Notes under the pieces: model-generated
What the model saw: only the letters and a program-made list of their open reading frames with translations
What the model was told of the DNA's origin: nothing
Databases searched by the model: none
Origin: Streptomyces griseochromogenes
GTDB taxonomy: Bacteria > Actinomycetota > Actinomycetes > Streptomycetales > Streptomycetaceae
Length of the DNA: 64,000 nt
NCBI RefSeq assembly: GCF_001542625.1
Contig: NZ_CP016279.1
Location: 2,294,001 to 2,358,000 of the forward strand
Reading direction: 5' to 3'
In this document: positions 3,001 to 19,020 of the stretch, piece by piece
How the letters are laid out: each line of letters begins with the position of its first letter
Position numbering within the stretch: the first letter of the stretch is position 1
Program-made: the position numbers and the translations under genes

Positions 3001-6000
3001 GGGGGAGATGCTCGGCCGGGTGGTGGAGCTGATGGCGGCTGGTGAGTTGTCGTTGCTGCCGGTGCGGGTGTGGGATGTGCGGCGGGCGCGGGAGGCGTTC
3101 CGGTTCATGTCGCAGGCCCGGCATACGGGGAAGCTGGTTCTGGCGATTCCTGCTGGTGTGGTTGTGTCTGGTGGGGGTGGTCGGTCGGCGTTGGTGACGG
3201 GTGGTACGGGCACGCTGGGTGGGCTGGTGGCCAGGCATCTGGCGGCGACCGGCCGCGCGGACGCTGTGGTGCTGACGAGTCGTTCGGGTCCGGCTGCTGC
3301 GGGTGTGGCGGCTCTGGTGGCTGAGCTGGCCTCGTCGGGAACGCGGGTCGAGGTGGTGGCCTGCGACGCCGCCGAGCGCGACGCGCTGGCCACCGTGCTG
3401 GCCGGGATCCCCGAAGACCTCCCGCTGACCACGGTCGTGCACACCGCCGGAGTACTGGACGACGGCGTGATCGCGTCGCTGACGCCGGAGCGGGTCGCGG
3501 GGGTGATGCGGCCCAAGGCCGACGGCGCCTGGAATCTGCACGAGCTCACCAAGGACCTGGACCTGGAGCACTTCGTGCTCTTCTCCTCGGCGGCTTCGGC
3601 GATCGGTGCGCCGGGTCAGGGCAACTACGTGGCGGCGAACGCGTTCCTGGACGCGCTGGCGGCCGAGCGCCGTGCGGCCGGGCTGGCCGGAACGTCGCTG
3701 GCCTGGGGCCTGTGGGCCGAGGTCAGTGCGCTGACCGGGCAGCTCACGGACGCCGAACGGGCCCGGATCAACCGCGGCGGAGTGAGCGCGCTGAGCGCGG
3801 ACGAGGGTCTGGCCCTGCTGGACCTGTCCATGGCGCGCGACGAGGCCGTGCTGGTCCCGACCCGATTCGACCTGGCCGGGCTGCGCGCCCAGGCCGCCCG
3901 TAGCACCGAGATCCCGCCGCTGTGGCGGGCTCTGGTCAGCGGTGGTCCGGGCCGGCGGACCGCGGCCTCCGGCACGGCCGTCGGGGCGGACTCGCTGCAC
4001 CAGCAGCTGGCCGGCCTGTCCGGCCCGGACCGCGACCGGATGCTGACCGACCTGGTCCGCACCCATGTCGCCGCCGTACTCGGACACACCTCGCTCGACG
4101 CGATCGAACCCACCCGGGCCTTCACCGACCTGGGCTTCGACTCACTGACAGCCGTAGAGCTGCGCAACCGGCTCAGCACGGCCACCGGACTGCGCCTGCC
4201 CGCCACGCTCGTATTCGACTACCCCAACCCGTTCGCGCTCGCCGTGTACCTACGAGACCGGGTCATGGGCGATGAAGCACCAGCCGTCAGCGTGCCACGA
4301 GTCCCCTCGGCGACGACGGCCGTCGACGAGCCGATCGCGATCGTGGGTCTGGGCTGCCGGTACCCCGGCGAGGTGAACAACCCCGACGAGTTCTGGGAGT
4401 TGCTCGCCACCGGGACGGACGCCGTATCCGGGTTCCCGGACGACCGTGGCTGGGACGCGGAGGGACTCTACGACCCGGACCCCGACCACGCGGGAACCAT
4501 CTACACCCGCTCGGGCGCGTTCGTCCACGACGCCAGCGGCTTCGATGCCGGGTTCTTCGGGATCAGCCCGCGTGAGGCCCTCGCCATGGATCCGCAGCAG
4601 CGGCAGTTGCTGGAGGTGTCGTGGGAGGCGCTGGAGCGGGCCGGAATCGACCCCGGATCGCTGCGCGGCAGCCCGACCGGTGTGTTCGTCGGCGGGTTCG
4701 CCTCGGGATACGGCTTCGGCGTGGCCATGGGCAGCGAGGGCTCCGAAGGGCACCTGACGACCGGCTTCGCGACGAGTGTGATGTCGGGCCGGGTGTCGTA
4801 TGCGCTGGGTCTTGAGGGTCCGGCGGTGACGGTGGACACGGCGTGTTCGTCGTCGCTGGTGGCGCTGCACCTGGCTTGCCAGGCGATCCGCGCCGGAGAG
4901 TGCACGCTGGCCCTGGCCGGCGGAGCCACGGTGATTTCCACCCCTGATGGGTTCGTGGGGTTCAGCCAGCAGCGTGGCCTGGCAGTGGACGGACGCTGCA
5001 AGGCGTTCTCGGCCGAGGCCGACGGCATGGGCATGGCCGAGGGCACCGGCGTCGTGGTCGTGGAACGGCTGTCCGACGCCCGCCGCAACGGGCACCGAGT
5101 CCTGGCGGTGGTCCGCGGTTCCGCGGTGAACCAGGACGGTGCGTCCAACGGTCTGACCGCGCCGAACGGCCCGTCGCAGCAGCGGGTGATCCGGGCGGCC
5201 CTGGCCAACGCCCGGCTGTCGGCCGCCGACGTGGACGTCGTCGAGGCGCACGGTACGGGCACGACGCTGGGTGACCCGATCGAGGCGCAGGCGCTGCTCG
5301 CGACCTATGGCCAGGAGCGGTCGGAGGAGCGGCCGTTGTGGCTCGGGTCGGTGAAGTCGAACATCGGTCACACGCAGGCCGCCGCCGGTGTCGCCGGTGT
5401 CATCAAGATGGTGCTGGCGCTGCAGAACCAGCAGCTGCCGCAGACGCTGCATGCGCAGGAGCCCTCGCCGCACGTGGACTGGTCGGCGGGCGAGGTGCGG
5501 CTGCTGACCGAGTCCGTCCCCTGGCCTGCTGGGGAGCGTGCGCGCCGTGCCGGTGTGTCCTCGTTCGGCATCAGCGGCACCAACGTCCACCTCATCGTCG
5601 AGGAAGCCCCGGCCGAGGACGGCCAGGCGGCGCAGGCCCTGGACGAACCCGCCGGTGAGCGGTCGGCCGCACCCGCGGTTGTCGAGACCGACGGGATCGG
5701 TGCGTGGGTGGTGTCCGCGCGGTCGGCCGACGGGCTGACCGGGCAGGCGGGACGGTTGCGGGAATGGGCGACCGCCCGGCCTGAGGCGGACCTGGCTGAT
5801 GTGGCGTGGTCGTTGGCGGCGACGCGGTCGGTGTTCGAGCACCGGGCCGTGGTGGTCGGCACCGGCCGCGATGAGCTGGTGACGGGTCTGGGGAGTCTGA
5901 CTGAAGGCGTGCCTGCCGCGTCGGTCGTGTCCGGCGTCGCGCGGCCGGGCGCCCGGGTGGTGTTCGTCTTCCCGGGTCAGGGGTCTCAGTGGCTGGGGAT

Positions 6001-9000
6001 GGGGCGTGAACTGGCTGAGTCCAGTCCGGTGTTCGCGGCTCGTCTGGCCGAGTGTGAGCGGGCGCTGGCCCCGTATGTGGACTGGTCGCTGACCGATGTT
6101 CTTGCAGGCGCGGACGGTGCTCCGGAGCTGGAGTCGGCGGATGTGGTGCAGCCGGCGCTGTGGGCGGTGATGGTCTCTCTGGCTGCGGTGTGGGAAGCCG
6201 CCGGTGTGACGCCGGACGCGGTTGCCGGTCATTCGCAGGGTGAGATCGCGGCGGCGACGGTGGCCGGGATGCTCAGCCTGGAGGACGGCGCGCGGGTCGT
6301 CGCGCTGCGCTCGCAGTCGTTGCGCGTGCTGTCTGGTGCCGGCGGCATGATGTCGGTGACCGAACCGGCCGCCCGGGTCGAGGAACGCCTCGGCCGCTGG
6401 GACGGTCGTCTGTCGCTGGCGGCGGTCAACGGCCCGGCCGCGGTGGTCGTCTCCGGTGAGCCGACGGCGCTGGAAGAATTGAAGCGGGAGCTGGAGGCCG
6501 AGGGCGTGCGCGCCCGGATGGTCGCGGTGGACTACGCCTCGCACTGTGCGCAGGTGGAGCAGCTGGAGAAGGAGATTCTCTCGGTTCTGGCCGGGGTGGC
6601 TCCGCGTGCGGGCCGGGTGCCGATGGTCTCCGCGATGACGGGCGAGATGCTGACCGGCACCGAGCTGGATGCCGGCTACTGGTACGGCAGCCTGCGGGCG
6701 TCGGTGCAGTTCGATGGCGCCGTGCGGACCCTGGCCGGCATGGGGCACCAGGTGTTCATCGAGGTCTCCCCGCACCCGGTGCTGCTCGGGGCGATGACCG
6801 AGACGCTGGAAGAGGCCGCTCTGGAAGCAGGTCCGGGCGCCCAGCCGGGGGTGGTGTGCGGGACGCTGCGCCGGGACGAGGGCGGAGCGGCACGTCTGAT
6901 CACCTCGCTCGCCGAGGCGTTCGTGCATGGTGCGCCGGTCGACTGGGCTGCGCTTCTGTCTGCCGGACAGCGGGTGGAGCTGCCCACGTACGCCTTCCAG
7001 CACGAGCGGTTCTGGCCCAAGGCGGCCGTATCTGCCACCGGCGGGGACGCGGTGTCGCTTGGCCTGGGTGCGGTGGGTCATCCGCTGCTGGGTGCGGCGG
7101 TTGAACTGGCCGGTGGAGCCGGGCTGGTGTGCACCGGACGGCTGTCCGTGCGTACGCACCCGTGGCTGGCCGACCACGCTGTCGGCGGCGTGATCCTGCT
7201 GCCGGGCACCGGGTTCGTGGAACTGGTTGTCCGAGCGGGTGACCAGGTCGGGTGCGGTCTGCTGGAGGAGCTGACGCTGCAGGCGCCGTTGGTGGTGCCC
7301 GCCGACGGTGGCGGGGTGCAGGTCCAGGTCGTGGTGGCGGCGGCTGATGCCGATGGACGGCGTGGTGTGGAGGTCTTCTCCCGTCCCGACCAGCCCGGCA
7401 CCGAACAGCCGTGGGTCCAGCACGCCAGCGCGCTGATCGCTCCCGCCACAACAGTCGGACAGGCCGACGATGACCTCGCTGTGTGGCCGCCGCGGGATGC
7501 GACCGCGGTGGACATCAGCGGCATGTACGAGGCCCTGGCCGCGGCTTCTTACGGTTACGGCCCGGCGTTCCAGGGTCTGCGGGCGGTCTGGCGTCGTGGC
7601 GAGGACGTCTTCGCCGAGGTGGCACTGCCGGAGGACGTGGCACAGGACGCGGGCGCCTTCGGACTGCACCCGGCGCTGCTGGACGCGGTGCTGCAGGCCG
7701 GCGCGCTGGCGGCCGATGAGAGCGGCGAGACCGCGCAAGGTGAGGTACGGCTGCCGTTCGCGTGGACGGGTGTGGAACTGCACGCGAGTGGAGCGTCGGT
7801 TCTGCGGGCCCGGGTGCGTCGTGACGCGCAGGGCAGTTTGACGCTGACGGCGGCGGACACCACCGGCGCACCAGTGGTCTCGGTGGAGTCACTCATCACC
7901 CGCCCGGTGTCGGCAGACCAGCTGCAGCCGACCCATGGCGGCGTGGCTGACGCGCTGTTCAGTGTGGATTGGGTCCCGGTGTCCGAGGCCTCGCTCCCGG
8001 CGGGGGAGTGGGCGCTGATCGGCACCGATCACTTCGCCCTGGCCGACGCGCTGGACACGGCCGGGGTGCCGGTCCGGGCCTTTGCCGATCTGGCCGAGGT
8101 CGCTGTCGCCATCGAGGCGGGGGAGGTCGCCCCGCAGGTGGTGCTCGTCTGTGCGGACACGGAGAACATCGGTGATGCCGCCCTGGCTGCCCAGCGGGCT
8201 GCCGGATCGATGCTGGGCCTGGTGCAGGAGTGGCTGGAGGAACAGCGCCTGGAGTCGGCGCAGTTGGTGGTGGTCACCCGAGGTGCGGTGGCCACGGCTG
8301 CCGGTGAGGGCGTGACGGACCTGGCGGCAGCGGCCGTATGGGGTCTGCTGCGGTCGGCCCAGTCGGAGAATCCGGGGCGTCTGCTCCTGGCCGATCTGCC
8401 CGTCACCGGCGACCACGCGGCCGTACTGCCGACGGTGCTCGGCAGCGGTGAGCCGGAGTTGGCGATCCGCGACCACCACGCCTACGGGCGTCGGCTGACC
8501 CGCCCGAAGGGTGACCTGGTCGTACCGGAGCCGGACACCGACGCACCTTCACGCACGGTACTGGTGACCGGTGGGACCGGGACGCTGGGTGGGATGGTGG
8601 CCCGGCATCTGGTGGTGACCGGCCGGGCCGGTGGTGTGGTGCTGGTGAGCCGCTCGGGCCCGGAAGCCGCTGGTGTGGCGGCCTTGGCTGCCGAGTTGGC
8701 CGGGCTGGGGGCGTGGGTTCGGGTGGTCGCGGGTGATGTGGCCGACCGGGACGCACTGGCCGCGCTGCTGGGTCAGATCCCGGCCGACTGCCCGCTGGGA
8801 TCGGTCTTCCATGCCGCGGGGATCATCGACGACGGTGTCATCGGGGCGCTCACCCCGGAGCGTCTGGCGGCGGTGATGCGGCCGAAGGTGGATGCGGCTT
8901 GGTATCTGCATGAGTTGACCCAGGGCTTGGACCTGGAGCATTTCGTTCTGTTCTCGTCGGCGGCGGCGACGTTCGGTGCGCCGGGGCAGGGCAATTATGT

Positions 9001-12000
9001 GGCGGCGAACGCGTTCCTGGACGCGCTGGCGGCCGAACGACGCTCGGCCGGGCTGGCCGGAACGTCGCTGGCCTGGGGGCTGTGGGCCGAGGTCAGCGGG
9101 TTGACGGGGCAGCTGTCCGACGCCGAGCGGGCCCGGATGACCCGTAACGGAATCACCGCGCTGAGCGCGGAGGAGGGGCTGACCCTGCTGGACGTGGCTC
9201 TGGCCCGGGAGGAGGCCACGCTGGTTCCGGCCCGCCTGGACCTGGCGGGTCTGCGGGCCCAGGCGGCGCGCAGTGGTGAGATCCCGCCGCTGTGGCAGGT
9301 GCTGGCCGGTGCCCCGGCCCGGCGGACCGCCGCCTCCGGCAGCACCGCCGGTGCGGACTCGCTGCGGCAGCAGCTTGCCGCGCTGCCCGCCGCGGACGGT
9401 GACCAGATGCTGCTGAATCTGGTGCGCACCCATGTCGCGGCGGTTCTCGGTCACGCCTCGGCCGATGCGATCGAGCCCGGCCGGGCCTTCACCGACCTGG
9501 GCTTCGACTCCCTGACCGCCGTCGAGCTGCGCAACCGGCTCAACGCGGTGACAGGGCTGCGGCTGCCCGCGACCCTGGTGTTCGACTACCCCACCCCGAC
9601 GGTGCTCGCGGCACACCTGCGGGCCAAGCTGGTCGGGCAGCGTGCCGCGGGCGCCGCCGCCCTGGCCCCGGTCGGCGCCGCCGCCCACGACGAGCCGATC
9701 GCGATCGTGGGGATGAGCTGCCGGTTCCCCGGCGGTGTGGCAGGCCCGGAGGATCTGTGGCAGATGCTCGCCACCGGGCAGGACGCGATCTCCGAGTTCC
9801 CCGAGGACCGCGGCTGGGACCTGGCCGGCCTGTACGACCCCGACGCGGCGCATGCGGGAACCTCGTACACCCGGGCTGGCGGGTTCGTGAAGGACGCCAG
9901 CGGGTTCGATGCCGGGTTCTTCGGGATCAGTCCGCGTGAGGCCCTCGCCATGGACCCGCAGCAGCGGTTGCTGCTGGAGCTGTCCTGGGAGGCCTTCGAG
10001 CGGGCCGGGATCGACCCGGTCAGCCTGCGCGGCAGCCAGACCGGCGCGTTCGTGGGCGGCTACACGTCCGGATACGAGATGGGCGTGCTGGCGGAGGGTG
10101 CCGAGGTCGAGGGGCACTTGATGACGGGCATCGCGACGAGCATCCTGTCCGGCCGGGTGTCGTACGCGTTCGGTCTCGAAGGGCCGGCGATGACGGTGGA
10201 CACGGCCTGCTCGTCGGCGCTGGTGGCGCTGCACCTGGCCTGCCAGGCGATCCGTTCCGGCGAATGCGCGATGGCGTTGGCCGGCGGTGTGACGATCATG
10301 GCCACTCCGGGGACCTTCATCGAGTTCTCCCGGCAGCGCGGGCTGGCGCCGGACGGGCGGTGCAAGGCGTTCTCGTCCGACGCGGACGGCACGGGCTTCG
10401 CGGAGGGCGCCGGCATGCTCGTCGTGGAGCGGCTGTCGGATGCCCGGCGCAACGGGCATCGGGTCCTCGCGGTGCTGCGCGGCAGCGCGGTGAACCAGGA
10501 CGGTGCGTCCAACGGACTGACGGCGCCCAACGGGCCCTCGCAGCAGCGGGTGATCCGCGCCGCCCTCGCCAACGCCCGGCTGTCGGCGGCTGAAGTGGAC
10601 GTGGTGGAGGCGCACGGTACGGGGACCACGCTCGGTGACCCGATCGAGGCGCAGGCGATCATCGACACCTACGGGCAGGAGCGTGCGCAGGAGCGGCCGT
10701 TGTGGCTCGGCTCGGTGAAGTCCAACATCGGGCACACGCAGGCCGCCGCCGGTGTCGCAGGTGTGATCAAGATGGTGCTGGCGCTGCAGAACCAGCAGCT
10801 GCCGCAGACGCTGCATGTGCAGGAGCCTTCGCCGCACGTGGACTGGTCGGCCGGTGAGGTGCGGCTGCTGACCGAAGCGGTGCCCTGGCCGGTGAACGGG
10901 CGGGTACGGCGTGCCGGTGTGTCCTCGTTCGGGATCAGCGGCACCAACGCGCACATCATCGTGGAGGAGGCCCCCGAGGCCGAGGAAGCCGAGGCTCCCG
11001 CCGAGGCGCCGGCGCCGCCCGCGGTGCCGTGGGTGCTGTCGGGGCGGACGCAGGAGGCGCTTCAGGCGCAGGCCGGACGGCTGCGGGCGTTCCTCGTCGA
11101 CCGGCCCGAACTGGACCCGGTGGACGTCGGGTTGTCGCTGGCCACGACCCGTTCGGGCTTCGACCGCCGGGCGGTCGTGCTGGGCGAGGACCGCGACGGC
11201 CTGCTCGCCGGGCTGGCCGTGGTCGCCGCGGGCGTGGAGACAGGGGACGTCCTGACCGGGACCGCGGCGGCGGAACAGAAGGCGGTGTTCGTCTTCCCCG
11301 GCACCGAGTCGGGCTGGGCCGGATCCGCCGCGCGACTGCTGGACGAGGCACCCGTGTTCGCGGCGCACATGGCCGAGTGCGAACGGGCCCTGGCCCCGTT
11401 CGTCGACTGGTCGCTGACCGAGGTGGTGCGGAGCGGACCGGAGGCCCGGGATTTCGAACGCCCCGACGTCGTGGGGCCGGTGCTGTGGGCGGTGATGGTG
11501 TCGCTGGCCGCGCTGTGGCGTTCGGCGGGCGTCCACCCGGCCGCCGTCACGGGCTACGACCTGGGCGAGATCGCCGCCGCGCAGGTGGCCGGTGTGCTGT
11601 CACTGGCCGACGCGGCCAAGGTGGCGGCGCTGACCAGCCGGGTGCCCGCCGGTGCGCAGCCGGGTCCCGAAGAGCTGGCCTCGATCCGCCCGCGACCGGG
11701 CAAGGTACCGATGCTCTCCACCCGGGACGCGGCGTGGGTCGCCGGAGCGGACCTGGACGCCGCCTACTGGTGCGGGAGTTCACGGGAGGCCGCGCCGTTG
11801 CGGGACGTGGTGCGCGCCCTGGCCGGAGACGGGTTCGGCGTCTGCATCGAGGTCAGCACCGACCCGGTGCTGACCACCGGGATCACCGAGGCCCTCGGCG
11901 AGACGGACCTGAAGAACGACGTCGTCACCGTGACCGGGACACTGCGCCGGGAGGATGCGGGCCTGCGGCGATTCCTGGCCGGCCTGGCCGCCGTCCACGT

Positions 12001-12667
12001 CCGCGGGACCACGGTGGACTGGGCCGCGGTGCTGGGCGGCGGGCGGAAGGTGGATCTGCCCACCTACGCCTTCCAACGCCAGCGGTACTGGCCGTCGGTG
12101 CCGGTCCGCGAGACCGTGGCGGCGCCGGGCGCCGAGAGCCAGTCTTCCCCGGGCGAGCGGCAGTTCTGGTCCGCGGTGGAGCAGGGAGACATGGCCGCGC
12201 TGGCCGGGATGCTCGGCCTCGCGGAGCCGCTCAGGGAGGACATGCCGCTCGGCACGATCCTGGCGTCGCTGTCGTCGTGGCGGCAGCGGGAGCAGGCCCA
12301 GCTCAACGGCGCCCCGGACAGCGAGGCCGACGCGGACTCCGCGGCGCCGGCCCTGGACTGGCTGCGGCAACTGGCCGAGGCGTCCCCGTCCGAGCGGCAG
12401 GAACTGCTGCGCGGGCTGGTCCGCGAGGAGATCGCCGCGATGCTCGGCTACGAATCCCTCGACCAGGTTCCCCTCGAAGGCGATGTCTTTGAGATGGGAA
12501 TGACGTCGATGTCGGCTGTTCAACTGCGGGAGGCAATAATCGAGCACACTGGAGTGAAGCCGCCGGAGGGCTTCGTCTATGATTTCTATTCGCCAGCCGC
12601 GATCGCGGACTTCCTGTTGACCGAGCTGTCAGCGGGGCTTCCGGAAGGTGACTTGGGAGCCGTTTAG
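2..12667 (+). CDS. Modular type I PKS, 5'-truncated by the window edge (three modules, last one eroded)
   Basis: The reading frame is already open at base 2, inside an AT domain, so the gene starts upstream. Domains in order (approximate bases): AT remainder 2-690 with YASH at 200-211 (methylmalonyl type); DH 746-1580 with His of HxxxGxxxxP at 842; ER 2215-3150; KR 3180-3720 (LDD, B type); ACP 4045-4250, Ser at 4142; KS 4327-5605, Cys at 4844; AT 5955-7020, GHSQGE at 6229 and YASH at 6533; DH 7076-7910; KR 8545-9100; ACP 9405-9620, Ser at 9509; KS 9690-10960, Cys at 10208; degenerate AT 11280-12080; KR dimerisation element without KR 12160-12290; ACP 12400-12630, Ser at 12506. The first module sets a methyl branch with full reduction. 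The second has no ER and should leave a 2-methyl-enoyl unit. The C-terminus lacks the acidic docking end seen on the other two PKS proteins, so this is probably the last PKS of the line. The partner genes for release follow directly. Confidence 0.95.
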   Translation, partial: GAGGMMSVTEPAARVEERLGRWEGRLSLAAVNGPAAVVVSGEPMALEELKRELEAEGVRARMVAVDYASHCAQVEQLEKEILSVLAGVAPRAGRVPMVSAMTGETLTGTELDAAYWYGSLRAPVYFDRAVHILADMGHQLFIEVSPHPVLMGAVTDTLEVVAHEAGPGTLAGVVCGTLRRDDGGAARLITSLAEAFVHGASVDWAALLSAGQRVELPTYAFQHERFWPKAVGPVLGGDAVSLGLGAVGHPLLGAAVELAGGAGLVCTGRLSVRTHPWLADHAVGGVILLPGTGFVELVVRAGDQVGCGLLEELTLQAPLVVPADGGGVQVQVVVAAADADGRREVEVFSRPDEPGTEQPWVQHASALIAPAVPVTGVEEDFAVWPPRDATAVDISGMYEALAAASYGYGPAFQGLRAVWRRGEDVFAEVALPEDVAQDAGAFGLHPALLDAVLQASALAGESGETAQGEVRLPFAWAGVELHASGASVLRARLRRDAQGSLTLTAADTTGAPVVSVASLITRPVSSDQLRTGDTGVADALFSVDWAPVAEIAVPAGDWALIGADRFALVDVLGSAGVPVRAFADLAEVAAATEAGEVAPQVVLVCADTESSGDAAQAARRAAGSMLGLVQEWMEEQRLESAQLVVVTRGAVSAVPGEGVTDLAAAAVWGLLRSAQSENPGRLVLADLPVTGDHATVLPTVLGNGEPELVIRGQNAYGRRLTRPSGDLVVPDGAWRLEPDEGGSLDGLVLAEVPQVGERLSAGQVRVAVRAAGLNFRDVLIGLNMYPGGGLMGSEIAGVVTETGPGVSHLAVGDRVMGIASGGFGPMVVTDAQQVVPIPEGLSFTAAASVPVAFLTAWYALVELAGARAGQRLLVHAGAGGVGMAAVQIARHLGLEVFATASPAKWPVLAEAGLDASHIASSRSAGFEAEFLAATGGAGMDIVLNSLAGELTDASLRLLARGGAFIEMGRTDLRDPEVLGGDFPGVMYRPFDLGEAGSQRMGEMLGRVVELMAAGELSLLPVRVWDVRRAREAFRFMSQARHTGKLVLAIPAGVVVSGGGGRSALVTGGTGTLGGLVARHLAATGRADAVVLTSRSGPAAAGVAALVAELASSGTRVEVVACDAAERDALATVLAGIPEDLPLTTVVHTAGVLDDGVIASLTPERVAGVMRPKADGAWNLHELTKDLDLEHFVLFSSAASAIGAPGQGNYVAANAFLDALAAERRAAGLAGTSLAWGLWAEVSALTGQLTDAERARINRGGVSALSADEGLALLDLSMARDEAVLVPTRFDLAGLRAQAARSTEIPPLWRALVSGGPGRRTAASGTAVGADSLHQQLAGLSGPDRDRMLTDLVRTHVAAVLGHTSLDAIEPTRAFTDLGFDSLTAVELRNRLSTATGLRLPATLVFDYPNPFALAVYLRDRVMGDEAPAVSVPRVPSATTAVDEPIAIVGLGCRYPGEVNNPDEFWELLATGTDAVSGFPDDRGWDAEGLYDPDPDHAGTIYTRSGAFVHDASGFDAGFFGISPREALAMDPQQRQLLEVSWEALERAGIDPGSLRGSPTGVFVGGFASGYGFGVAMGSEGSEGHLTTGFATSVMSGRVSYALGLEGPAVTVDTACSSSLVALHLACQAIRAGECTLALAGGATVISTPDGFVGFSQQRGLAVDGRCKAFSAEADGMGMAEGTGVVVVERLSDARRNGHRVLAVVRGSAVNQDGASNGLTAPNGPSQQRVIRAALANARLSAADVDVVEAHGTGTTLGDPIEAQALLATYGQERSEERPLWLGSVKSNIGHTQAAAGVAGVIKMVLALQNQQLPQTLHAQEPSPHVDWSAGEVRLLTESVPWPAGERARRAGVSSFGISGTNVHLIVEEAPAEDGQAAQALDEPAGERSAAPAVVETDGIGAWVVSARSADGLTGQAGRLREWATARPEADLADVAWSLAATRSVFEHRAVVVGTGRDELVTGLGSLTEGVPAASVVSGVARPGARVVFVFPGQGSQWLGMGRELAESSPVFAARLAECERALAPYVDWSLTDVLAGADGAPELESADVVQPALWAVMVSLAAVWEAAGVTPDAVAGHSQGEIAAATVAGMLSLEDGARVVALRSQSLRVLSGAGGMMSVTEPAARVEERLGRWDGRLSLAAVNGPAAVVVSGEPTALEELKRELEAEGVRARMVAVDYASHCAQVEQLEKEILSVLAGVAPRAGRVPMVSAMTGEMLTGTELDAGYWYGSLRASVQFDGAVRTLAGMGHQVFIEVSPHPVLLGAMTETLEEAALEAGPGAQPGVVCGTLRRDEGGAARLITSLAEAFVHGAPVDWAALLSAGQRVELPTYAFQHERFWPKAAVSATGGDAVSLGLGAVGHPLLGAAVELAGGAGLVCTGRLSVRTHPWLADHAVGGVILLPGTGFVELVVRAGDQVGCGLLEELTLQAPLVVPADGGGVQVQVVVAAADADGRRGVEVFSRPDQPGTEQPWVQHASALIAPATTVGQADDDLAVWPPRDATAVDISGMYEALAAASYGYGPAFQGLRAVWRRGEDVFAEVALPEDVAQDAGAFGLHPALLDAVLQAGALAADESGETAQGEVRLPFAWTGVELHASGASVLRARVRRDAQGSLTLTAADTTGAPVVSVESLITRPVSADQLQPTHGGVADALFSVDWVPVSEASLPAGEWALIGTDHFALADALDTAGVPVRAFADLAEVAVAIEAGEVAPQVVLVCADTENIGDAALAAQRAAGSMLGLVQEWLEEQRLESAQLVVVTRGAVATAAGEGVTDLAAAAVWGLLRSAQSENPGRLLLADLPVTGDHAAVLPTVLGSGEPELAIRDHHAYGRRLTRPKGDLVVPEPDTDAPSRTVLVTGGTGTLGGMVARHLVVTGRAGGVVLVSRSGPEAAGVAALAAELAGLGAWVRVVAGDVADRDALAALLGQIPADCPLGSVFHAAGIIDDGVIGALTPERLAAVMRPKVDAAWYLHELTQGLDLEHFVLFSSAAATFGAPGQGNYVAANAFLDALAAERRSAGLAGTSLAWGLWAEVSGLTGQLSDAERARMTRNGITALSAEEGLTLLDVALAREEATLVPARLDLAGLRAQAARSGEIPPLWQVLAGAPARRTAASGSTAGADSLRQQLAALPAADGDQMLLNLVRTHVAAVLGHASADAIEPGRAFTDLGFDSLTAVELRNRLNAVTGLRLPATLVFDYPTPTVLAAHLRAKLVGQRAAGAAALAPVGAAAHDEPIAIVGMSCRFPGGVAGPEDLWQMLATGQDAISEFPEDRGWDLAGLYDPDAAHAGTSYTRAGGFVKDASGFDAGFFGISPREALAMDPQQRLLLELSWEAFERAGIDPVSLRGSQTGAFVGGYTSGYEMGVLAEGAEVEGHLMTGIATSILSGRVSYAFGLEGPAMTVDTACSSALVALHLACQAIRSGECAMALAGGVTIMATPGTFIEFSRQRGLAPDGRCKAFSSDADGTGFAEGAGMLVVERLSDARRNGHRVLAVLRGSAVNQDGASNGLTAPNGPSQQRVIRAALANARLSAAEVDVVEAHGTGTTLGDPIEAQAIIDTYGQERAQERPLWLGSVKSNIGHTQAAAGVAGVIKMVLALQNQQLPQTLHVQEPSPHVDWSAGEVRLLTEAVPWPVNGRVRRAGVSSFGISGTNAHIIVEEAPEAEEAEAPAEAPAPPAVPWVLSGRTQEALQAQAGRLRAFLVDRPELDPVDVGLSLATTRSGFDRRAVVLGEDRDGLLAGLAVVAAGVETGDVLTGTAAAEQKAVFVFPGTESGWAGSAARLLDEAPVFAAHMAECERALAPFVDWSLTEVVRSGPEARDFERPDVVGPVLWAVMVSLAALWRSAGVHPAAVTGYDLGEIAAAQVAGVLSLADAAKVAALTSRVPAGAQPGPEELASIRPRPGKVPMLSTRDAAWVAGADLDAAYWCGSSREAAPLRDVVRALAGDGFGVCIEVSTDPVLTTGITEALGETDLKNDVVTVTGTLRREDAGLRRFLAGLAAVHVRGTTVDWAAVLGGGRKVDLPTYAFQRQRYWPSVPVRETVAAPGAESQSSPGERQFWSAVEQGDMAALAGMLGLAEPLREDMPLGTILASLSSWRQREQAQLNGAPDSEADADSAAPALDWLRQLAEASPSERQELLRGLVREEIAAMLGYESLDQVPLEGDVFEMGMTSMSAVQLREAIIEHTGVKPPEGFVYDFYSPAAIADFLLTELSAGLPEGDLGAV
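11280..12080 (+). other. Degenerate acyltransferase domain (AT0) in the last PKS module
   Basis: The nucleophile motif GHSxGE of the other ATs reads GYDLGE here (11552-11569), so the catalytic Ser is Asp. The N-terminal GQGSQ motif reads GTESG. The stretch that carries the small ferredoxin-like subdomain and the YASH/HAFH His in neighbouring ATs is missing: about 100 residues are replaced by a Pro/Gly-rich linker of about 25. The frame is intact and the flanks (start of the fold, AYW and [11 protein letters not shown] post-AT motif) are kept, so this is an in-frame decayed domain, not an assembly break. It cannot load an extender by the known AT mechanism. Confidence 0.9.
12160..12290 (+). 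other. KR dimerisation element left without a KR
   Basis: After the dead AT the protein shows a helical segment with FWSAVEQGDMAAL and a later LASLSSWRQRE. This is the pattern of the dimerisation element that normally sits between AT and KR in AT-KR modules. No Rossmann GxGxxG or NYxxAN KR motif follows; the chain goes straight to the ACP. I infer that an ancestral KR was lost from this module. Confidence 0.6.
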
Positions 12668-12697
12668 GGTTCCCCGGCCCCTGAGCTCGTGCTAGCG

Positions 12698-12713
12698 TCT
12701 GGCGCGCTATTAG
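12698..12713 (+). promoter_or_regulatory. Possible promoter/operator motif shared with 20271-20285
   Basis: The 138-bp gap between the PKS and the thioesterase-like gene contains TCTGGCGCGCTATTAG. The same 11-mer TCTGGCGCGCT followed by an A/T-rich TTTA occurs upstream of the loading-module PKS gene. Both copies lie 40-110 bp before a start codon on the same strand. It may be part of a promoter or an activator box; chance similarity in GC-rich DNA cannot be excluded. Confidence 0.3.
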
Positions 12714-12805
12714 GGGTGCGATCTGCCGTGAAAGAGCGGTTCAGGTAAGAAGCAGGATCCGGCGCAGGGAAACCGGCCGTCCGACTCCTATGATGGGATG
12801 AACAA

Positions 12806-13642
12806 GTGCCGAACGAAGGCTCGTGGAGCGTCATATCCACCCCCAAGTCGAACCGTATTATCCTCGCCGTTGATTTCCCCGCGGCCGGGCGCCGCGAGGC
12901 AGGTTTCGGGGATCTCGCGGCCAAGGTGGGGCCGGCCTGGTCCGACTACGGATTCCTGCAGACCACACCGCCTTCCGTGCGGCTGTCCGAGCGTCCTTCC
13001 GGCGACTTCTACACCGAGCACTGGATCCGGGGCGGCGAGTGGGAGAAGTACGAGGTGGTGGCCGTGCTCGGCTACTGCGTCGGCAGCGTCTACGCGGCGG
13101 AGCTCGCCCAGCGGCTGACCCGGTGGCAGAGCACCGAGCCCAAGGTCATTCTCTTCGACCCGCAGCTCACCGACAGCCAGCTGCTCGCCATGGAAATGCA
13201 CAAGATGATCGGCATGGCCGGCCCGCTCTTCTCCGACGAGGAAGCCGAGCGGGCCAGGCAGAGTGCCACCGCGATCATCGAGACCCACGCGGGCGGCCTG
13301 GTGGACGCCGCCATCGAGATCGTCGGGCTCTACCGGGAGATGGCGACGATCGCCTTCAAGCGGCTCGGTCTCGCCGACTCCCGCCGGGACGAAGTGGTCC
13401 TGCTCTTCGAGTCGTACATGACCTGGCTCTCGGCCGCCGCACAGGTCGACCCGAGCACGGTGTGGCGGCGCTCCACCGCGATCACCTCGACCGACTGGGC
13501 CGCCATGGAGAGCCGCGGCGACACCACGGTCCTCAACGCCAGCAAGGTGATCGGCCGGAAGTTCCCGGTCGACATCGACCACGCCGACCTGATGCGCACG
13601 GATTCCGCCGTTCAGATACTCCTTGACGAAGGCGAATTCTGA
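12806..13642 (+). CDS. Alpha/beta-hydrolase, thioesterase-like, with Cys nucleophile
   Basis: The 278-aa protein has the layout of a type II thioesterase: a first strand near residues 17-24, a nucleophile elbow at 89-93 reading G-Y-C-V-G, a following strand with LFDPQ, a helical lid, and a C-terminal DHADL (His259) in the place of the usual GxHF motif. The nucleophile position is Cys91 rather than Ser. Cys thioesterases are known in some NRPS/PKS release domains, where they favour acyl transfer. Its place right after the terminal PKS module and 5 nt before an NRPS gene suggests a role in off-loading or in moving the chain to the NRPS. The GTG start at 12806 is the first in-frame start after the PKS stop; its ribosome site is weak. 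A proofreading role is the main alternative. Confidence 0.7.
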   Translation: MPNEGSWSVISTPKSNRIILAVDFPAAGRREAGFGDLAAKVGPAWSDYGFLQTTPPSVRLSERPSGDFYTEHWIRGGEWEKYEVVAVLGYCVGSVYAAELAQRLTRWQSTEPKVILFDPQLTDSQLLAMEMHKMIGMAGPLFSDEEAERARQSATAIIETHAGGLVDAAIEIVGLYREMATIAFKRLGLADSRRDEVVLLFESYMTWLSAAAQVDPSTVWRRSTAITSTDWAAMESRGDTTVLNASKVIGRKFPVDIDHADLMRTDSAVQILLDEGEF

Positions 13643-13647
13643 GCGAC

Positions 13648-16600
13648 ATGAATGCGGAAAGCGGCACGCCCGTCGGGTCATTGAAACCAGCCACGGCTTC
13701 CCTGTCGGTCACCAACAAGGAAAAAGCCTTGTGGCTGCTGGAGAAGCTCGTTCCGGACACGGGTATCAACAACGTCGGGCTTGCTCTCCAGGTGAGCGGC
13801 CGGCTGCGCCCGGACGCGCTGAAAGCGGCCATGGCCATCATGCTCGGCCGGCACGAGGTCCTTCGGACGGTTTTCCGCGCCGACGGTACGGCGGACCTGG
13901 TCAAGGAGACCGTTCCGGCCGGTGAGTTCAAGGTGGACATCGAGCCGCTCGACCTGTCCGGCGGGCCGTTGCAGGAGCGGCTGACCGCATTCGTCGACCG
14001 CCCTTTCCGGCTCGACGGCCGGCCGCTGGTCAGGGCCGGGTTCGCCACGCACCCGGACGGTGACGTCCTGTGCGTGGGAGTGCACCACCTGGCGTTCGAC
14101 ATGGTCTCCATAGCCGTGTTCATGCGCGAGTTCATCCCGGTCTACGAGGCGCTGGCCACCGGCCGTCCGATACCGGCCGAGGCGGCGACGCGGGCCCCGC
14201 TCGTCACCGGGCCCGAACCGCAGCCGGCCGATCTCGCCTACTGGCGCGAGACCCTGAGCGGACTCACACCGGGCGGACTCGACCTGTGGTGCGGCGTGCC
14301 GCGTGGCCGGCAGCCCGTGATGACGGGCGAGAACGCGGGCCGCACCCTCTCCCCGGAGGCACAGCACGCCGTGCTGCACCTGCAGCGCGTGGCCAGAGCA
14401 CCCGTCGCCGCCGTGCTGCTGGCCGCCTACAGCGCCCTGCTCGCCTCGCACGGTGCCGGACCCGACATCGTCATCGGCTCACCGGTCGACGTCCGCGGGA
14501 CCAACACGTCCGCCATCGGCTACCACGTGAACGTCGTCCCGCTGCGCATCCGCGTGGACTTCACCGAAGGCTTCCGCGCCCTGGCCCGCAAGGCCCGGGA
14601 CGCCTTCCTCGGCGCGATGGGACACGCGGGCGTCTCCGTCGACGACCTGAACGGCGAACTCCCCGGCTTCGGCTCGTCCTGGCAGACCGCGCTCTTCAGG
14701 CACATGTTCAACTTCCTGCCCGACACCTCCCCGGGCGAGCTGTCGATCGACGGAATGCCCGCCCGGCTGCTGACGATCGAGAACCCCTACAGCAAGTCCG
14801 ACCTGGAGCTCGTCGGTACGCCGTCCAAGGCCGACGTCTGGTTCCGCTACTCCCGCGAGATCCTGGCCCGCGCCGACGTCGAGGCGATGCTGCGCCGGTT
14901 CGAAGCCCTGCTGATCGCGGCCGCCCAGGACGCCGACCGGCCGATCGGGGAGACAGCGGGCTGGAGCGACCTCGACCGCGAGGTCACCGACCGGGCCAAC
15001 GAGACCGCGAGCCCGGCCGCACCCGAAACGGTGCCGGCGGCCTTCCGGTCGTGGGCGACGGCGTCACCCGAGGCTCCGGCCGTCGTCGACGGCGAACGCA
15101 CCCTCACCTACCAGCAGGCGCACCGGGCCGCGCTCGAGATCCGGGACCTGCTGGCAACCGAGGCCGGTGTCCGCCCGGGCGACGTCGTGGCGGTGGCCGC
15201 GTCCCCGGGCGAGGCCGCCGTGGCCGCGCTCGGCATATGGCTCGCCGGCGCGGTCCACCTCCCCGTCGACGCGGGCCACGACGCCTCCTGGACGGCACGG
15301 CAGCTGACCCACTCCGGGGCGAAGGCGGTACTGACCGGGACCGGCGTCCGGTTATCCGCCGATGACCAGCCCCTTCCCGTCCTGTCCATGGACACCGCCC
15401 GGCCGGCCGCATCCGCCGAGCCGGGCCCGGCCGGCGAACCGGCCGACCCGCGATCCCCCGCCTGCCTGTTCTACGCGTCCGCGCCGGACGGAGAACCGGT
15501 CGCCACCACCCTGAGCCACGCGGGCATCGCCAACCTGGTCGCCCACGTCGCCACCGAACTGTCCGCCACGCCGGGCACGGGCACCCTGACACTCGCCGGC
15601 CTCACGTCGTACGAGTCGCTGGTCGACCTCTTCCTGCCGCTGACCTCGGGCGGGCGGCTCGTCGTCGCCCCCGACGAGGCCCGCGGCGACGGACCCGCAC
15701 TGCGCGACCTGATCGACCGTCACGACGTCGGCATCGTGCGGATCCCGGCGGGCACCCCGGCCCGCATCCTTCAGGACGCGGCCGACCGGCTGCCGGGCCT
15801 GCGCGTCCTCGTCCGGGGCGAGGAGGTCTCCCGCGCGACCGCGGACCGGCTCCTCACGGCCGGATGCCGGCTGTACGGCGTCCACGGCGCCGCCGAGACC
15901 GGCGGCTGGGCCCTGTCCGCGCGGATCGACGACCCGGACGACCTGACCTCGGGACGCCCCCTCACGAACACCCGGGCCTTCATCACCGCCCCCGACGGCC
16001 GGGAACTGCCCATCGGACTGCGCGGCGAGCTGTGCCTGGCCGGAACCGGGCTCGCACCGGCGGGCCCCGACGACGCCCGGTTCTCGCACAACGAGCGCTA
16101 CGGGCGCCACTACCGCACCGGAGAACTGGCCCGCCGCCGGCCCGACGGAACGATCGAACGGCTCGGCCACGGCAGCCGGCAGATCGTCACCGCCGACGGC
16201 CCGGTCGACCCGAGCGGGATCGAGGCGGTCCTGCTCGACCATCCCGCCGTACGCGCGGCCGTGGCCCTGGCCGTGACCTCGCCCGGCGAAGACCGCACCG
16301 TCGTCGCCTTCGCCGAGGTGACCGACACCGCCGAGCCGGCCGACGGCCCACTGCTGCGGGCGCACGCACGAGAACACCTGGCCCCACCCGCCGTCCCCCG
16401 GCAGGTCGTCCGTCTGACCGCGCTGCCCAGGAACGCCGACGGCCGGCCCGACCTCGACGCGCTCGCACGCCTCGCCGCGAAATCCCTCGAAGCGGGTCCC
16501 GACGAACACGACCCCGCCGCGGACGACAAACTCGTCCAGGAACTCGTCGAATTGTGGCGGCAGCTCCTCAATACCGAGGTGACGGCCCAGACGAGTTTCT

Positions 16601-16737
16601 TCGAAGCAGGCGGCCATTCACTGCTCGCCGCGGTACTGGCGCAAAAAATCGAGGAACTGACCGGGGTGTCCCTCGAACTCTCCGAAGTCTTCGAACACCC
16701 GACACCCGCCGCTCTCGCTGCGCGGGTGCGCGCGTAA
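13648..16737 (+). CDS. Stand-alone NRPS module C-A(degenerate)-PCP
   Basis: The 1029-aa protein has a condensation domain (about residues 20-450) with HHLAFDM at 146-152: both His and the Asp are present but the usual Gly is Met. The adenylation domain (about 455-945) is degenerate. Core A3, normally YTSGSTGxPKG, reads FYASAPDGEPVAT; A8 lacks the GRxDxQVKxRG pattern; the A10 Lys is Arg (NADGRPDL). The PCP is intact with GGHSLL, Ser991. I infer that it cannot activate its own amino acid and that its PCP is charged by another A domain, most simply the glycine-type one at 55355-58474. It starts 5 nt after the thioesterase-like gene, so the two are probably co-translated. Codon 569 (15352-15354) is TTA, a rare Leu codon that in Streptomyces makes translation depend on the bldA tRNA. 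Confidence 0.9.
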   Translation: MNAESGTPVGSLKPATASLSVTNKEKALWLLEKLVPDTGINNVGLALQVSGRLRPDALKAAMAIMLGRHEVLRTVFRADGTADLVKETVPAGEFKVDIEPLDLSGGPLQERLTAFVDRPFRLDGRPLVRAGFATHPDGDVLCVGVHHLAFDMVSIAVFMREFIPVYEALATGRPIPAEAATRAPLVTGPEPQPADLAYWRETLSGLTPGGLDLWCGVPRGRQPVMTGENAGRTLSPEAQHAVLHLQRVARAPVAAVLLAAYSALLASHGAGPDIVIGSPVDVRGTNTSAIGYHVNVVPLRIRVDFTEGFRALARKARDAFLGAMGHAGVSVDDLNGELPGFGSSWQTALFRHMFNFLPDTSPGELSIDGMPARLLTIENPYSKSDLELVGTPSKADVWFRYSREILARADVEAMLRRFEALLIAAAQDADRPIGETAGWSDLDREVTDRANETASPAAPETVPAAFRSWATASPEAPAVVDGERTLTYQQAHRAALEIRDLLATEAGVRPGDVVAVAASPGEAAVAALGIWLAGAVHLPVDAGHDASWTARQLTHSGAKAVLTGTGVRLSADDQPLPVLSMDTARPAASAEPGPAGEPADPRSPACLFYASAPDGEPVATTLSHAGIANLVAHVATELSATPGTGTLTLAGLTSYESLVDLFLPLTSGGRLVVAPDEARGDGPALRDLIDRHDVGIVRIPAGTPARILQDAADRLPGLRVLVRGEEVSRATADRLLTAGCRLYGVHGAAETGGWALSARIDDPDDLTSGRPLTNTRAFITAPDGRELPIGLRGELCLAGTGLAPAGPDDARFSHNERYGRHYRTGELARRRPDGTIERLGHGSRQIVTADGPVDPSGIEAVLLDHPAVRAAVALAVTSPGEDRTVVAFAEVTDTAEPADGPLLRAHAREHLAPPAVPRQVVRLTALPRNADGRPDLDALARLAAKSLEAGPDEHDPAADDKLVQELVELWRQLLNTEVTAQTSFFEAGGHSLLAAVLAQKIEELTGVSLELSEVFEHPTPAALAARVRA

Positions 16738-16763
16738 ACAACCCACGAAACCGCAGGGAATAC

Positions 16764-17633
16764 ATGATGAGTACTGATTTTGGTGAGCACCGTCTCGCCA
16801 TTGTCGGGGCCGGCGTGATGGGTACGAACATCACGACGCTCGCCCTCGGCCACGGGGTCCCCGTCGTCCTGGTGGACGTCAGCGAGGCCGTACTGGAGCA
16901 GGCACGCGCCACCATCAAGCAGAAGCTGCGCCACGCCCAGCTCATGGGCGTCCTGCCGGCGGACCGCCCGCAGGGCGAGCTGACCACGAGCGTGTCCCTG
17001 GACGACATCGCGGACGCCACCACCGTCATCGAGGCGGTCACGGAGGTCGCCGAGGTCAAGGAGAAGGTCCTGACCGCGGCCTCGGCGATCGTCCGCCCGG
17101 GCACCACCCTCATCTCCAACACCTCGTGCATCCCGATCGACGAGATGGCCGCCTGGGTCGCACGCCCCGAGGAACTCGTCGGCGTGCACTTCATGAACCC
17201 CTCCTACCTGATCAAGATGGTCGAGGTCATCCGCGGCCCGCGCACCGACGCCGGCATCGTGGAAGCCGTCACCGGACTGCTGACCGTCCTCGGCCGCGAG
17301 TCGCTCGTCATCAACGACTCGACCGGCTTCGTGATCAACCGGCTGCTGCACCCGCTGATCAACACCGCGGCCATGCTCGTCCAGGAGGGCGTCGCCTCCG
17401 CCGAAGTCGTCGACGGCCTCCTCGAAGGCTGCCTCGGACACTCGACCGGGCCGCTGCGCACCGGCGACCTCATCGGCCTGGACAACCTGGTCGACTCGCT
17501 CAACGTGCTCTACGAGCGCCGCGGCGACGAAAGCTGCCGCCCCTGTGACCTGCTGCTCGCGAAGGTGCGGGACGGCCACCTCGGCCGGAAGTCCGGACGA
17601 GGGTTCTACGACTACGGAAAGGTCGCCTCATGA
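16764..17633 (+). CDS. 3-hydroxyacyl-CoA dehydrogenase family protein of ACP-linked extender-unit synthesis (FkbK type)
   Basis: The 289-aa protein has the NAD-binding fingerprint GAGVMG at residues 15-20, the VHFMNP catalytic-His segment and the C-terminal GRKSGRGFYDY motif of this family. In methoxymalonyl- and hydroxymalonyl-ACP pathways the homologue oxidises the C3 hydroxyl of ACP-bound glycerate. The start is ATG at 16764 (a second ATG follows directly), with AGGGA a few bases before it. The frame is open about 900 bases further upstream, but that part lies inside the NRPS gene in another frame. The stop overlaps the next gene (ATGA at 17630), so translation is likely coupled. Confidence 0.9.
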   Translation: MMSTDFGEHRLAIVGAGVMGTNITTLALGHGVPVVLVDVSEAVLEQARATIKQKLRHAQLMGVLPADRPQGELTTSVSLDDIADATTVIEAVTEVAEVKEKVLTAASAIVRPGTTLISNTSCIPIDEMAAWVARPEELVGVHFMNPSYLIKMVEVIRGPRTDAGIVEAVTGLLTVLGRESLVINDSTGFVINRLLHPLINTAAMLVQEGVASAEVVDGLLEGCLGHSTGPLRTGDLIGLDNLVDSLNVLYERRGDESCRPCDLLLAKVRDGHLGRKSGRGFYDYGKVAS

Positions 17634-17914
17634 CTGCCGAACTCTCTTCCCTCACGGCTGAGAGCATCCAGAAGGAACTCCTCGGATTCCTCAGCGAGCG
17701 CATCAAGACCGATGTGGAGCTGGACCAGGACCTCTTCAGCTCCGGCCTGGTCTCCTCCATGTTCGCGATGCAGCTGGTCGTCCACCTCGAAGAGGCCTAC
17801 GACATCGCCATCGTCGGCCCGGACCTCAAGTTCGACAACTTCCGCACCGTCGAGTCCATGACCAGCCTCGTGCAGCGGCTGCGGGACGCGTCGGGTCCGG
17901 CCGAAGATGCCTGA
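17630..17914 (+). CDS. Discrete acyl carrier protein for the glycerate-derived extender unit (FkbJ type)
   Basis: This 94-aa four-helix carrier protein has its attachment site in the context GLVSSMFAMQL; by alignment to the usual DSL the phosphopantetheine Ser is Ser43. Discrete ACPs of this type carry the glyceryl unit while the two dehydrogenases oxidise it, and then present the finished extender to the PKS. It overlaps the dehydrogenase upstream by 4 nt and the acyl-CoA dehydrogenase downstream by 8 nt, forming one tightly coupled sub-operon. The last PKS module has a dead AT, so this ACP may have to serve that module directly or through another AT (inference). Confidence 0.9.
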   Translation: MTAELSSLTAESIQKELLGFLSERIKTDVELDQDLFSSGLVSSMFAMQLVVHLEEAYDIAIVGPDLKFDNFRTVESMTSLVQRLRDASGPAEDA

Positions 17915-19016
17915 GCGGCTCGCCGACGAGCACGCCTTCGTGGGCGAGCTTGTCGGCAACCGTCCGGACGCCTGGGACCGCTCGGGCGAACTGCCCATCG
18001 ACCTGCTGCACAAGCTCGGCGCCCGCGGCCTGCTGTGCGCGGAGGTCCCGGCGTCCTACGGCGGCCTCGGCGCGAGCAGCCGGGACAACGGCGAGTTCAC
18101 CGCCTACGTGGGCAGCCTGTGCAGTTCCCTGCGGTCCATCATGACCTCGCAGGGCATCGTCGCCCACACCGTCCGGCGCTTCGGCGACCGCACCCAACGA
18201 CGCCAGTTCCTCGGAGAACTGACGAACGGGAAGCTCGCCGGGGTCGGATTCAGCGAGCCGGCCGCCGGCAGCGACCTGTCGGCCATGCGGACCCGGATCG
18301 AACCCGACGGCGACACCTTCGTCGTCAACGGGGAGAAGAAGTGGCTGACCGGCAGCCGGTACGCCGACTTCCTGCTGATCCTCGGACTGAACGGCGACGG
18401 CGCCGCCGCCGCTCTCATCCCCACGGACACACCGGGCCTGGACATCGAGCTGGTGGCCGACCCGATGGGCTGCCGGGCCGCCGGACACGCCAACGTCCGC
18501 ATGGACGACGTACGCATCCCTGCGGCCAACGTCCTGGGCGGCGGCGGCCAGTCCCTGCCGATGCTGTTCACCACCGCGCTCTCCTACGGGCGCATGTCGA
18601 TCGCGTGGGGCTGCGTCGGGATCATCCGCGCCTGCCTGAACGCCGCGGGCGCGCACGCCAAGACCCGCGAGCAGGCAGGCGTGCCGCTCTCCGAGCACCA
18701 GCTCGTGCGCAGGCACCTCGCCGAACTCCTGATCGCCGAACAGTCCTCGACCCGGGTCTGCGAGCACGCCAGCCAGGCCTGGGACTCCGCCTCGCCGGAC
18801 ATGGCCGTCCAGGCGGTCCTGGCCAAGCACGTCAGCGCCGGCCATGCCGCGCGCGGCGCCGCCACCGCCGTACAACTGCTGGGATCGGCGGGCGCCCAGG
18901 ACGGGCACGTCGTCGCCCGGGCCTACCGGGACGCGAAACTCATGGAACTCATCGAGGGCAGCAACGAGATCTGCCAGCTGATCCTGGCAGAGCACGTCCT
19001 GTCCATTTCAGGATGA
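17907..19016 (+). CDS. Acyl-CoA dehydrogenase family oxidase of ACP-bound extender (FkbI type)
   Basis: The 369-aa flavoprotein has the family motifs GFSEPAAGSD (FAD/substrate region), NGEKKWLTG, and a C-terminal ELIEGSNEICQ segment that contains the usual catalytic Glu position. In FK520-type and zwittermicin-type pathways the homologue carries out the second oxidation of the ACP-bound glyceryl unit. It begins inside the end of the ACP gene (8-nt overlap) and ends 53 nt before the FkbH-type gene, so all four genes should be co-transcribed. Confidence 0.9.
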   Translation: MPERLADEHAFVGELVGNRPDAWDRSGELPIDLLHKLGARGLLCAEVPASYGGLGASSRDNGEFTAYVGSLCSSLRSIMTSQGIVAHTVRRFGDRTQRRQFLGELTNGKLAGVGFSEPAAGSDLSAMRTRIEPDGDTFVVNGEKKWLTGSRYADFLLILGLNGDGAAAALIPTDTPGLDIELVADPMGCRAAGHANVRMDDVRIPAANVLGGGGQSLPMLFTTALSYGRMSIAWGCVGIIRACLNAAGAHAKTREQAGVPLSEHQLVRRHLAELLIAEQSSTRVCEHASQAWDSASPDMAVQAVLAKHVSAGHAARGAATAVQLLGSAGAQDGHVVARAYRDAKLMELIEGSNEICQLILAEHVLSISG

Positions 19017-19020
19017 CAGC

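Follow-up and report, generated by a model that had tools for sequence, protein, structure and literature searches.

A last polyketide synthase module with an excised AT, probably loaded in trans with malonyl, at a putative glycine tetramate terminus of Streptomyces griseochromogenes

In Streptomyces griseochromogenes, a cis-AT PKS ends in a module that has an intact KS, an ACP with its attachment Ser, and a dead AT. This raises the question of where the module obtains an extender unit and which unit that would be. The module lies in a window of 64,000 nucleotides (the whole stretch of DNA that was analysed), corresponding to bases 2294001-2358000 of a 10.76-Mb contig, and the cluster around it spans about 2216700-2352500. 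The answer that we favour, and consider probable, is that the module forms the final PKS step of a line making a glycine-derived 3-acyl tetramate and that FabD or a malonyl AT of the PKS loads malonyl onto its ACP in trans. We infer the extension by this module, malonyl as its unit, the identity of the loader, and the product.

The module ends a protein encoded at 2..12667 on the forward strand, with its start to the left of the window. This protein has 4946 aa in the whole genome, where its frame is likewise open, which bears out the clean flanking frame described in the first-pass annotation. Its last modules are DH-ER-KR, DH-KR, and finally KS-AT0-DE-ACP (9689-12667, forward strand, as are the genes and domains placed at window positions below), where AT0 denotes the dead AT and DE a dimerisation element. 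The KS (9689..10975) is intact, as first noted, and retains its Cys, His, and His in DTACSS, EAHGTGT, and KSNIGH. The corresponding KS residues are also intact in the orthologue from Actinomadura violacea.

AT0 occupies 11024..12091 and is composed of a KS-AT linker, a hydrolase-like core, and a post-AT linker. The first-pass annotation described an AT lacking its Ser, its small subdomain, and its second His; these features stand, but not the start given at 11280, as the AT region begins at 11024. In the motif GYDLGE (11552-11569), Tyr-Asp replaces the His-Ser of GHS, and GTESG is found in place of GQGSQ. A segment of approximately 90 residues, which holds the small subdomain with the YASH His, is missing at about 11636-11690 (junction text 11642-11683), and alignment to the intact AT of the preceding module places the absent residues at 206-236 and 246-293. 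With 356 aa, AT0 falls below all 216 other AT regions that were delimited by roughly equivalent landmarks, the smallest of them having 365 aa; the Ser motif is present in 215 of the 216. AT0 is predicted to fold well (pLDDT 91.4, pTM 0.92).

Behind AT0 is a dimerisation element (PKS_DE; 12152..12301, aa 4052-4098, Pfam E 2.7e-10), and no KR is found between it and the ACP of this last module, in agreement with the earlier reading. The A. violacea element is likewise without a KR (E 1.2e-10). The view that such an orphan element is unique to this terminus was rejected: among six related terminal modules scanned, L194 has a clear element without a KR (E 1.5e-8), L191 and L192 have weak ones below the cut-off, and none is listed for L197, L200, and L203. 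The terminal ACP (12401..12628) has its attachment Ser and no C-terminal docking tail. Its motif, GMTSM (12497-12511), is as first read.

Twenty of the loci with a cyclase relative listed in a scan of the same genus were fetched and mapped, and a terminal tail-less ACP was defined as one with 20 or fewer residues behind it at the protein end. The Asp before the Ser is absent in 10/10 such carriers (T in four, S in three, A in two, N in one; L191, L192, L194, L195, L197, L198, L199, L200, L203, and L205) and in 15/238 other ACPs (Fisher 1.6e-11, a value that is overstated since the loci are partly close kin, L191/L192 and L195/L197 being near copies). Excluded from the count are rows in which the motif has no Ser, four terminal ACPs belonging to other loci (two with D, two with N), and 13 ACPs from the S. 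griseochromogenes and A. violacea clusters. Ten of these 13 are internal, all with D, and three are at an end (T, T, and D), the one with D being at a cut locus end. In some loci, e.g., L191, L192, L194, and L205, several kb separate the ACP from the cyclase. GMTSM and its A. violacea counterpart GITSI fit this pattern, so the motif may be taken as a family mark of tail-less terminal carriers and not a sign of decay. A dead carrier was rejected because the Ser is retained and the non-Asp motif is typical of tail-less terminal ACPs in tetramate loci. The missing Asp of the DSL motif is a possible genome-mining marker for such loci.

The A. violacea orthologue stands in an equivalent setting and its AT is cut likewise, lacking residues 208-297 in the alignment; the two AT0s are sisters in the tree (support 1.0). 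The same excision in another genus contradicts an assembly collapse of the AT, the alternative named in the first-pass annotation, and this explanation was rejected. A homologue with a full AT in the same strain was also looked for: the genome has no other match to the whole 550-aa query, the next-best match being 57% over query residues 3-227. Retention of the module in its cut form, as first suggested, is supported by one orthologue and by a dN/dS of 0.50 for AT0. The conservation claim thus covers two clusters, with at least one orthologue among the matches listed in the scan of genome contigs, in which diverged orthologues may have been missed. In a sample of the class with five candidates scored per genome, 1/394 genomes had the module, namely that of S. 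griseochromogenes itself. Cyclase relatives are found in 37/295 genomes of the genus, with identities of at most 36% outside this locus.

Constraint differs between the parts. AT0 is less constrained than the intact AT (dN/dS 0.50 vs 0.26), and the dead A domain of the downstream NRPS has a value of 0.63. The KS (0.30), ACP (0.38), and PCP (0.07) are under constraint, and the dimerisation element is under little (0.76 over 51 codons).

The S. griseochromogenes line is composed of one loading module and 23 extender modules, with the AT0 module last. The numbers of loading and extender modules are the same in A. violacea, which has an extra three-module PKS besides. This extra PKS (L116, A. violacea map 140940-156428) is a 5163-aa frame with a TE-like end by eye; it sits between NRPS1 and the hydroxymalonyl genes, where the S. 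griseochromogenes cluster has no counterpart. Read by eye, an N-terminal docking coil is present in seven of the S. griseochromogenes PKS proteins and a C-terminal tail in seven. The AT0 protein is the sole PKS protein with a coil and without a tail, which suggests that it is the last in the line.

Sorted by motif, the 24 ATs of S. griseochromogenes comprise 11 malonyl, seven methylmalonyl, and five third-class domains together with AT0; in A. violacea, the 27 ATs comprise six malonyl, 16 methylmalonyl, and four third-class domains together with AT0. With 23 of the 24 S. griseochromogenes ATs intact by motif, and no discrete AT in the cluster by a search with a single PKS AT, the line does not have the features of a trans-AT PKS. 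Both other ATs on the AT0 protein and the loading AT are of the methylmalonyl type. The loading-module KS (window about 20400-21700) reads VDTSASSS where extension KSs read VDTACSSS, its active Cys being replaced by a residue other than the usual Gln. Two frame breaks are seen elsewhere in the PKS, at window 27062-27347 and, outside the window, at genome 2285046-2285094. They fall after a DH and between a KR and an ACP, the matching A. violacea proteins are open, and the breaks are either real lesions or sequencing faults. To the right of the A. violacea cluster is a further NRPS frame (L114, A. violacea map 189330-192803, minus strand) with the A code DVYAMAQIVK.

Directly downstream of the AT0 protein is a Dieckmann cyclase of the NcmC/TrdC family (12806..13642). 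It has no Pfam or NCBIfam match at E 0.001 and matches NcmC (PDB 6e6t) with an E of 1.6e-28. Over residues 9-267, GYCVGS aligns with GFCAGS, FDPQ with FDPE, and DHADL with HHADL of NcmC, so that Cys, Asp, and His are kept. This cyclase likely releases the chain as a tetramic acid.

The cyclase is followed by NRPS1 (13648..16737), a C-A0-PCP protein with HHxxxD in its C domain, a dead A domain, and a PCP that retains its Ser in GGHSLL. In the A domain, the Asp at code position 235 is replaced by Tyr (Cys in A. violacea) and the last Lys by Arg (Leu in A. violacea), and motifs A3 and A5 are lost. A second protein, NRPS2 (55355..58474), is a C-A-PCP protein whose A domain is intact and has the glycine-type code DILQLGVIWK, the same in both species. 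The C domain of A. violacea NRPS2 reads HQLVLDG and has lost its second His. Because the A domain of NRPS1 is dead, NRPS2 is the likely source of its glycine. C-PCP proteins without a full A domain stand beside NcmC-type cyclases in 3/20 of the mapped loci (L200, L204, and L207); L207 is a second such place in the S. griseochromogenes genome, near contig position 3614380.

Set against an NcmC/TrdC-type tetramate terminus, the cyclase is an NcmC homologue with Cys, Asp, and His, the last PKS module has no KR, and the code of NRPS2 is that of a glycine-activating C-A-PCP, although the NRPS next to the cyclase has a dead A domain. An intact malonyl-type AT in the last module is usual without being strictly defining, and here the Ser, the His, and the small subdomain are lost. 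The best reading of these domains and motifs is a tetramate module that uses glycine and is split over two proteins.

The DH and KR motifs of the preceding module are intact in both species, and the arriving chain should therefore be an enoyl thioester. A beta-keto group is required for Dieckmann closure, and the AT0 module, with intact KS residues and no KR, is the only one that can make it, so this module most likely extends. Since its own AT is dead, loading must then come from outside. The suggestion that the extender is supplied in trans is accordingly the best inference, provided that the module extends at all.

The proposed course is as follows. The ACP of the AT0 module would be loaded in trans with plain malonyl, most likely by FabD (malonyl-CoA:ACP transacylase) or a malonyl-type AT belonging to this PKS. 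The KS, being intact, would condense the incoming 2-methyl-2-enoyl chain with malonyl and, with no KR present, leave a beta-ketoacyl-S-ACP. The C domain of NRPS1 would join this chain to glycine activated and handed over by NRPS2, and the NcmC-type cyclase would close the ring and free the product. In the tetramic acid, C2 and C3 would stem from the two carbons that the AT0 module adds.

The choice of malonyl draws on the related loci. All nine readable ATs of related terminal modules are of the malonyl type (GHS[IV]G and an AFH lid), a tenth (L195) being in another frame and outside this count. The KR is absent in eight of these nine modules, L199 having one. A search with a single PKS AT as query covered 170 kb around the cluster and 220 kb of A. 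violacea and turned up no discrete AT. The genome has two FabD-like frames, at 151072 (332 aa, 240.6 bits) and 5686757 (615 aa, 240.2 bits), both slightly below the family cut-off of 260.9 bits. The methylmalonyl-type ATs on the AT0 protein are the wrong unit nearby and count against the malonyl reading.

As the first-pass annotation reported, a discrete-ACP extender pathway lies 4 kb downstream of the AT0 module. This hydroxymalonyl-ACP set is made up of a 3-hydroxyacyl dehydrogenase (HADH, 16785..17633), a discrete ACP (17630..17914), an acyl dehydrogenase (ACAD, 17907..19016), and an FkbH-type enzyme (19070..20179). No O-methyltransferase is found among the genes of 12668-20312. A second FkbH domain is encoded in the genome at 6435714-6436667, within a 4639-aa frame with KS- and AT-like matches.

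The candidate users of this pathway are the five third-class ATs, which are intact and belong to the same PKS, at genome 2218486-2282317, all left of the window; A. violacea has four. Their lid reads [ML]RW(R/P)IP.TDFVAH (general form [ML]RW..D[FY]VAH). According to Park et al., ATs that take CoA-bound units have RXR ahead of the lid, and those that take ACP-bound units have MXW or hydrophobic residues of another kind (PMC4207774). The lids found here match MXW given one inserted residue, the alignment pairing LRWRIPETDFVAH with RARMIP-VDYASH. In AT0 the segment that would bear this motif is absent.

A lid of the third-class kind is found in 12 rows (11 distinct ATs) from five genomes among 266 AT matches, which were drawn from loci L022-L099 and L153-L182, the latter fetched as best matches to such an AT. 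Counting A. violacea, six genomes have the lid. The HADH-ACP-ACAD-FkbH set shares a cluster with third-class ATs in S. griseochromogenes, A. violacea, Catenulispora pinistramenti (its HADH cut by the edge of the stretch examined), Salinispora oceanensis, and genome G180. G215 has an AT with MRW..FAAH and an FkbH match on a different contig, the contigs being too short to place together. In G113, the four genes are on a different contig from its best AT, which bears a YASH lid. FkbH is above the cut-off in 125/295 genomes of the same genus; it is so common that a shared cluster counts and a shared genome does not. Co-occurrence and signature, read without a reverse control, make the third-class lid a candidate mark of hydroxymalonyl use.

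The first-pass annotation had proposed that hydroxymalonyl-ACP feeds the AT0 module, which now appears unlikely. In that case, the discrete ACP would hand hydroxymalonyl directly to the module, giving an alpha-hydroxy-beta-ketoacyl chain and a 3-hydroxylated tetramate or other end group. The closeness of the four genes, which are also in the A. violacea cluster, speaks for such a transfer, as does the methylmalonyl/ACP-type lineage of AT0, whose mean identity is 0.529 to ACP-type ATs, about the same to methylmalonyl ATs (0.524), and 0.39 to malonyl ATs. However, the intact third-class ATs of both species are the obvious users, and they share a cluster with the four-gene set in 5/5 of the genomes that can be resolved out of six. 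Hydroxymalonyl was rejected as the likely feed on this co-occurrence. The A. violacea set is moreover about 20 kb from the AT0 module and beside another PKS, and both the glycine-tetramate machinery and the malonyl-type ATs of 9/9 related terminal modules point elsewhere. We know of no route by which an extender on an ACP would reach an AT-less module unless some AT takes part. It is similarly doubtful that the AT0 module does not extend and that its KS and ACP merely pass the chain to NRPS1. The dead AT and the failure to find a discrete one in the cluster with the single AT query agree with this, but an enoyl thioester without a beta-keto group would make Dieckmann closure impossible, and the KS retains the His residues for decarboxylative condensation.

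A neighbouring AT of the same protein could load the ACP with methylmalonyl instead. Both candidates there are of that type, and neighbour loading, of malonyl, has been proposed for the dead terminal AT of irumamycin (PMC11672594), yet a methyl at this position would produce a quaternary tetramate C3, and none of the readable related terminal ATs is other than malonyl type; we regard this as very unlikely. Simple decay, with the AT deletion one of several lesions in a cluster that is being lost, is more improbable again. It would account for the two frame breaks and for the weaker constraint on AT0 and the dimerisation element. Against it are the same excision with about the same borders in A. 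violacea, where the broken frames are open, the constraint on KS, ACP, and PCP, and the well-folded prediction for AT0.

The origin of the module can be read in part from what is left. In a whole-length tree, AT0 groups with methylmalonyl/ACP-type ATs (support 0.98); in a tree of the C-terminal half, its placement is unstable (support 0.20). This lineage and the leftover dimerisation element suggest an ancestral module that carried out reduction and accepted a substituted unit, from the methylmalonyl/ACP-linked line. Loss of the AT and KR would convert a reducing, branching module to the non-reducing, unbranched one needed for tetramate closure. A more tentative idea, possible but not one that we would lean on, is that KS-AT0-ACP and C-A0-PCP have each lost a loader and are pure receivers fed in trans, with malonyl and glycine respectively, that the folded AT core serves the outside loader as a scaffold or docking face, and that the loss of the AT was an evolved switch from a branched to an unbranched unit, a natural equivalent of the engineered AT-null module.

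If malonyl loading in trans is correct, nature alters the unit at one position of a cis-AT line without mutating specificity motifs, by excising the small subdomain of the AT and using a loader from elsewhere. Such a terminus would also offer a ready-made receiver module for engineering, and a missing AT in it would predict malonyl for genome miners. The orphan dimerisation element, GMTSM, and the dead A domain would then be parts of one terminus.

Among the closest known systems are the termini of nocamycin, tirandamycin, and streptolydigin (NcmB-NcmC, TrdD-TrdC, SlgL). They share the Dieckmann cyclase with Cys, Asp, and His, the glycine code DILQLGVI, and a PKS followed by a C-A-PCP NRPS. 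The NcmB code was predicted by its authors for glycine, consistent with the product (PMC5466765). The S. griseochromogenes line differs in that C and A work are apparently split over two NRPS proteins. Nocamycin M8, the highest-numbered module named in the available part of that source, has malonate AT motifs, whereas the last AT here is dead and cut.

Bripiodionen synthase has a comparable split, with a C-A0-T protein (BpdC) carrying D552P and K792R, a separate live A-T (BpdD), and an NcmC-type cyclase; mutagenesis showed that both carriers are needed, and BpdD is proposed to feed BpdC (PMC10956176, in the portion available). NRPS1 has the same Asp and Lys losses and an intact carrier, and the live A domain is likewise on a separate protein. 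The helpers differ, being an A-T didomain for Asn in bripiodionen and a C-A-PCP coding glycine here, as do the last modules, KS-AT-ACP in bpd and KS-AT0-DE-ACP here. Passages from PMC9349299 and PMC12843615 have nothing on an excised AT and add one further NcmC-type cyclase, AvmQ. The zwittermicin (ZmaA-AT) and butyrolactol systems, which use hydroxymalonyl-ACP, share supply genes without an O-methyltransferase and MXW-like ATs in other modules; they differ from the AT0 module, which is without the very segment bearing the MXW-like signature.

Among long-chain tetramates, aflastatin A and blasticidin A have a chain numbered to C48 and an alanine-derived, N-methyl tetramate. The C48 numbering would presumably fit an acetate and 23 extenders, the number in both clusters when the extra A. 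violacea PKS is excluded. The glycine code and the methylmalonyl-type loading AT of S. griseochromogenes differ from these compounds, for which no cluster was met in the search of open PMC literature. Aflastatin A is described as a long polyol-polypropionate tetramate (PMC10094535, seen in part).

In module 12 of irumamycin, the AT Ser is replaced by Gly, and the authors propose that the carrier reaches the AT of module 11, with AT11 loading malonyl onto T12 (PMC11672594). The S. griseochromogenes terminus likewise belongs to a cis-AT PKS whose last module has a dead AT without its Ser, with the KS and the carrier retained, as they are in use in irumamycin. Irumamycin differs in its TE macrocyclisation and lack of a tetramate, and a missing small subdomain is unmentioned in the part of the paper available. 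An AT-null DEBS module 6, complemented by the malonyl transacylase of S. coelicolor, gave a desmethyl product, according to the available text (PMC6164871). This AT6-null enzyme shares with the S. griseochromogenes reading an AT-less last module of methylmalonyl origin that receives malonyl in trans; it is a laboratory construct, and in S. griseochromogenes the same change may have come about by evolution. The open PMC literature searched showed no tetramate line with an excised AT, which is not proof that none is in print. The AT0 terminus reads as a variant of the NcmC-type tetramate terminus, and its closest likeness is an engineered enzyme.
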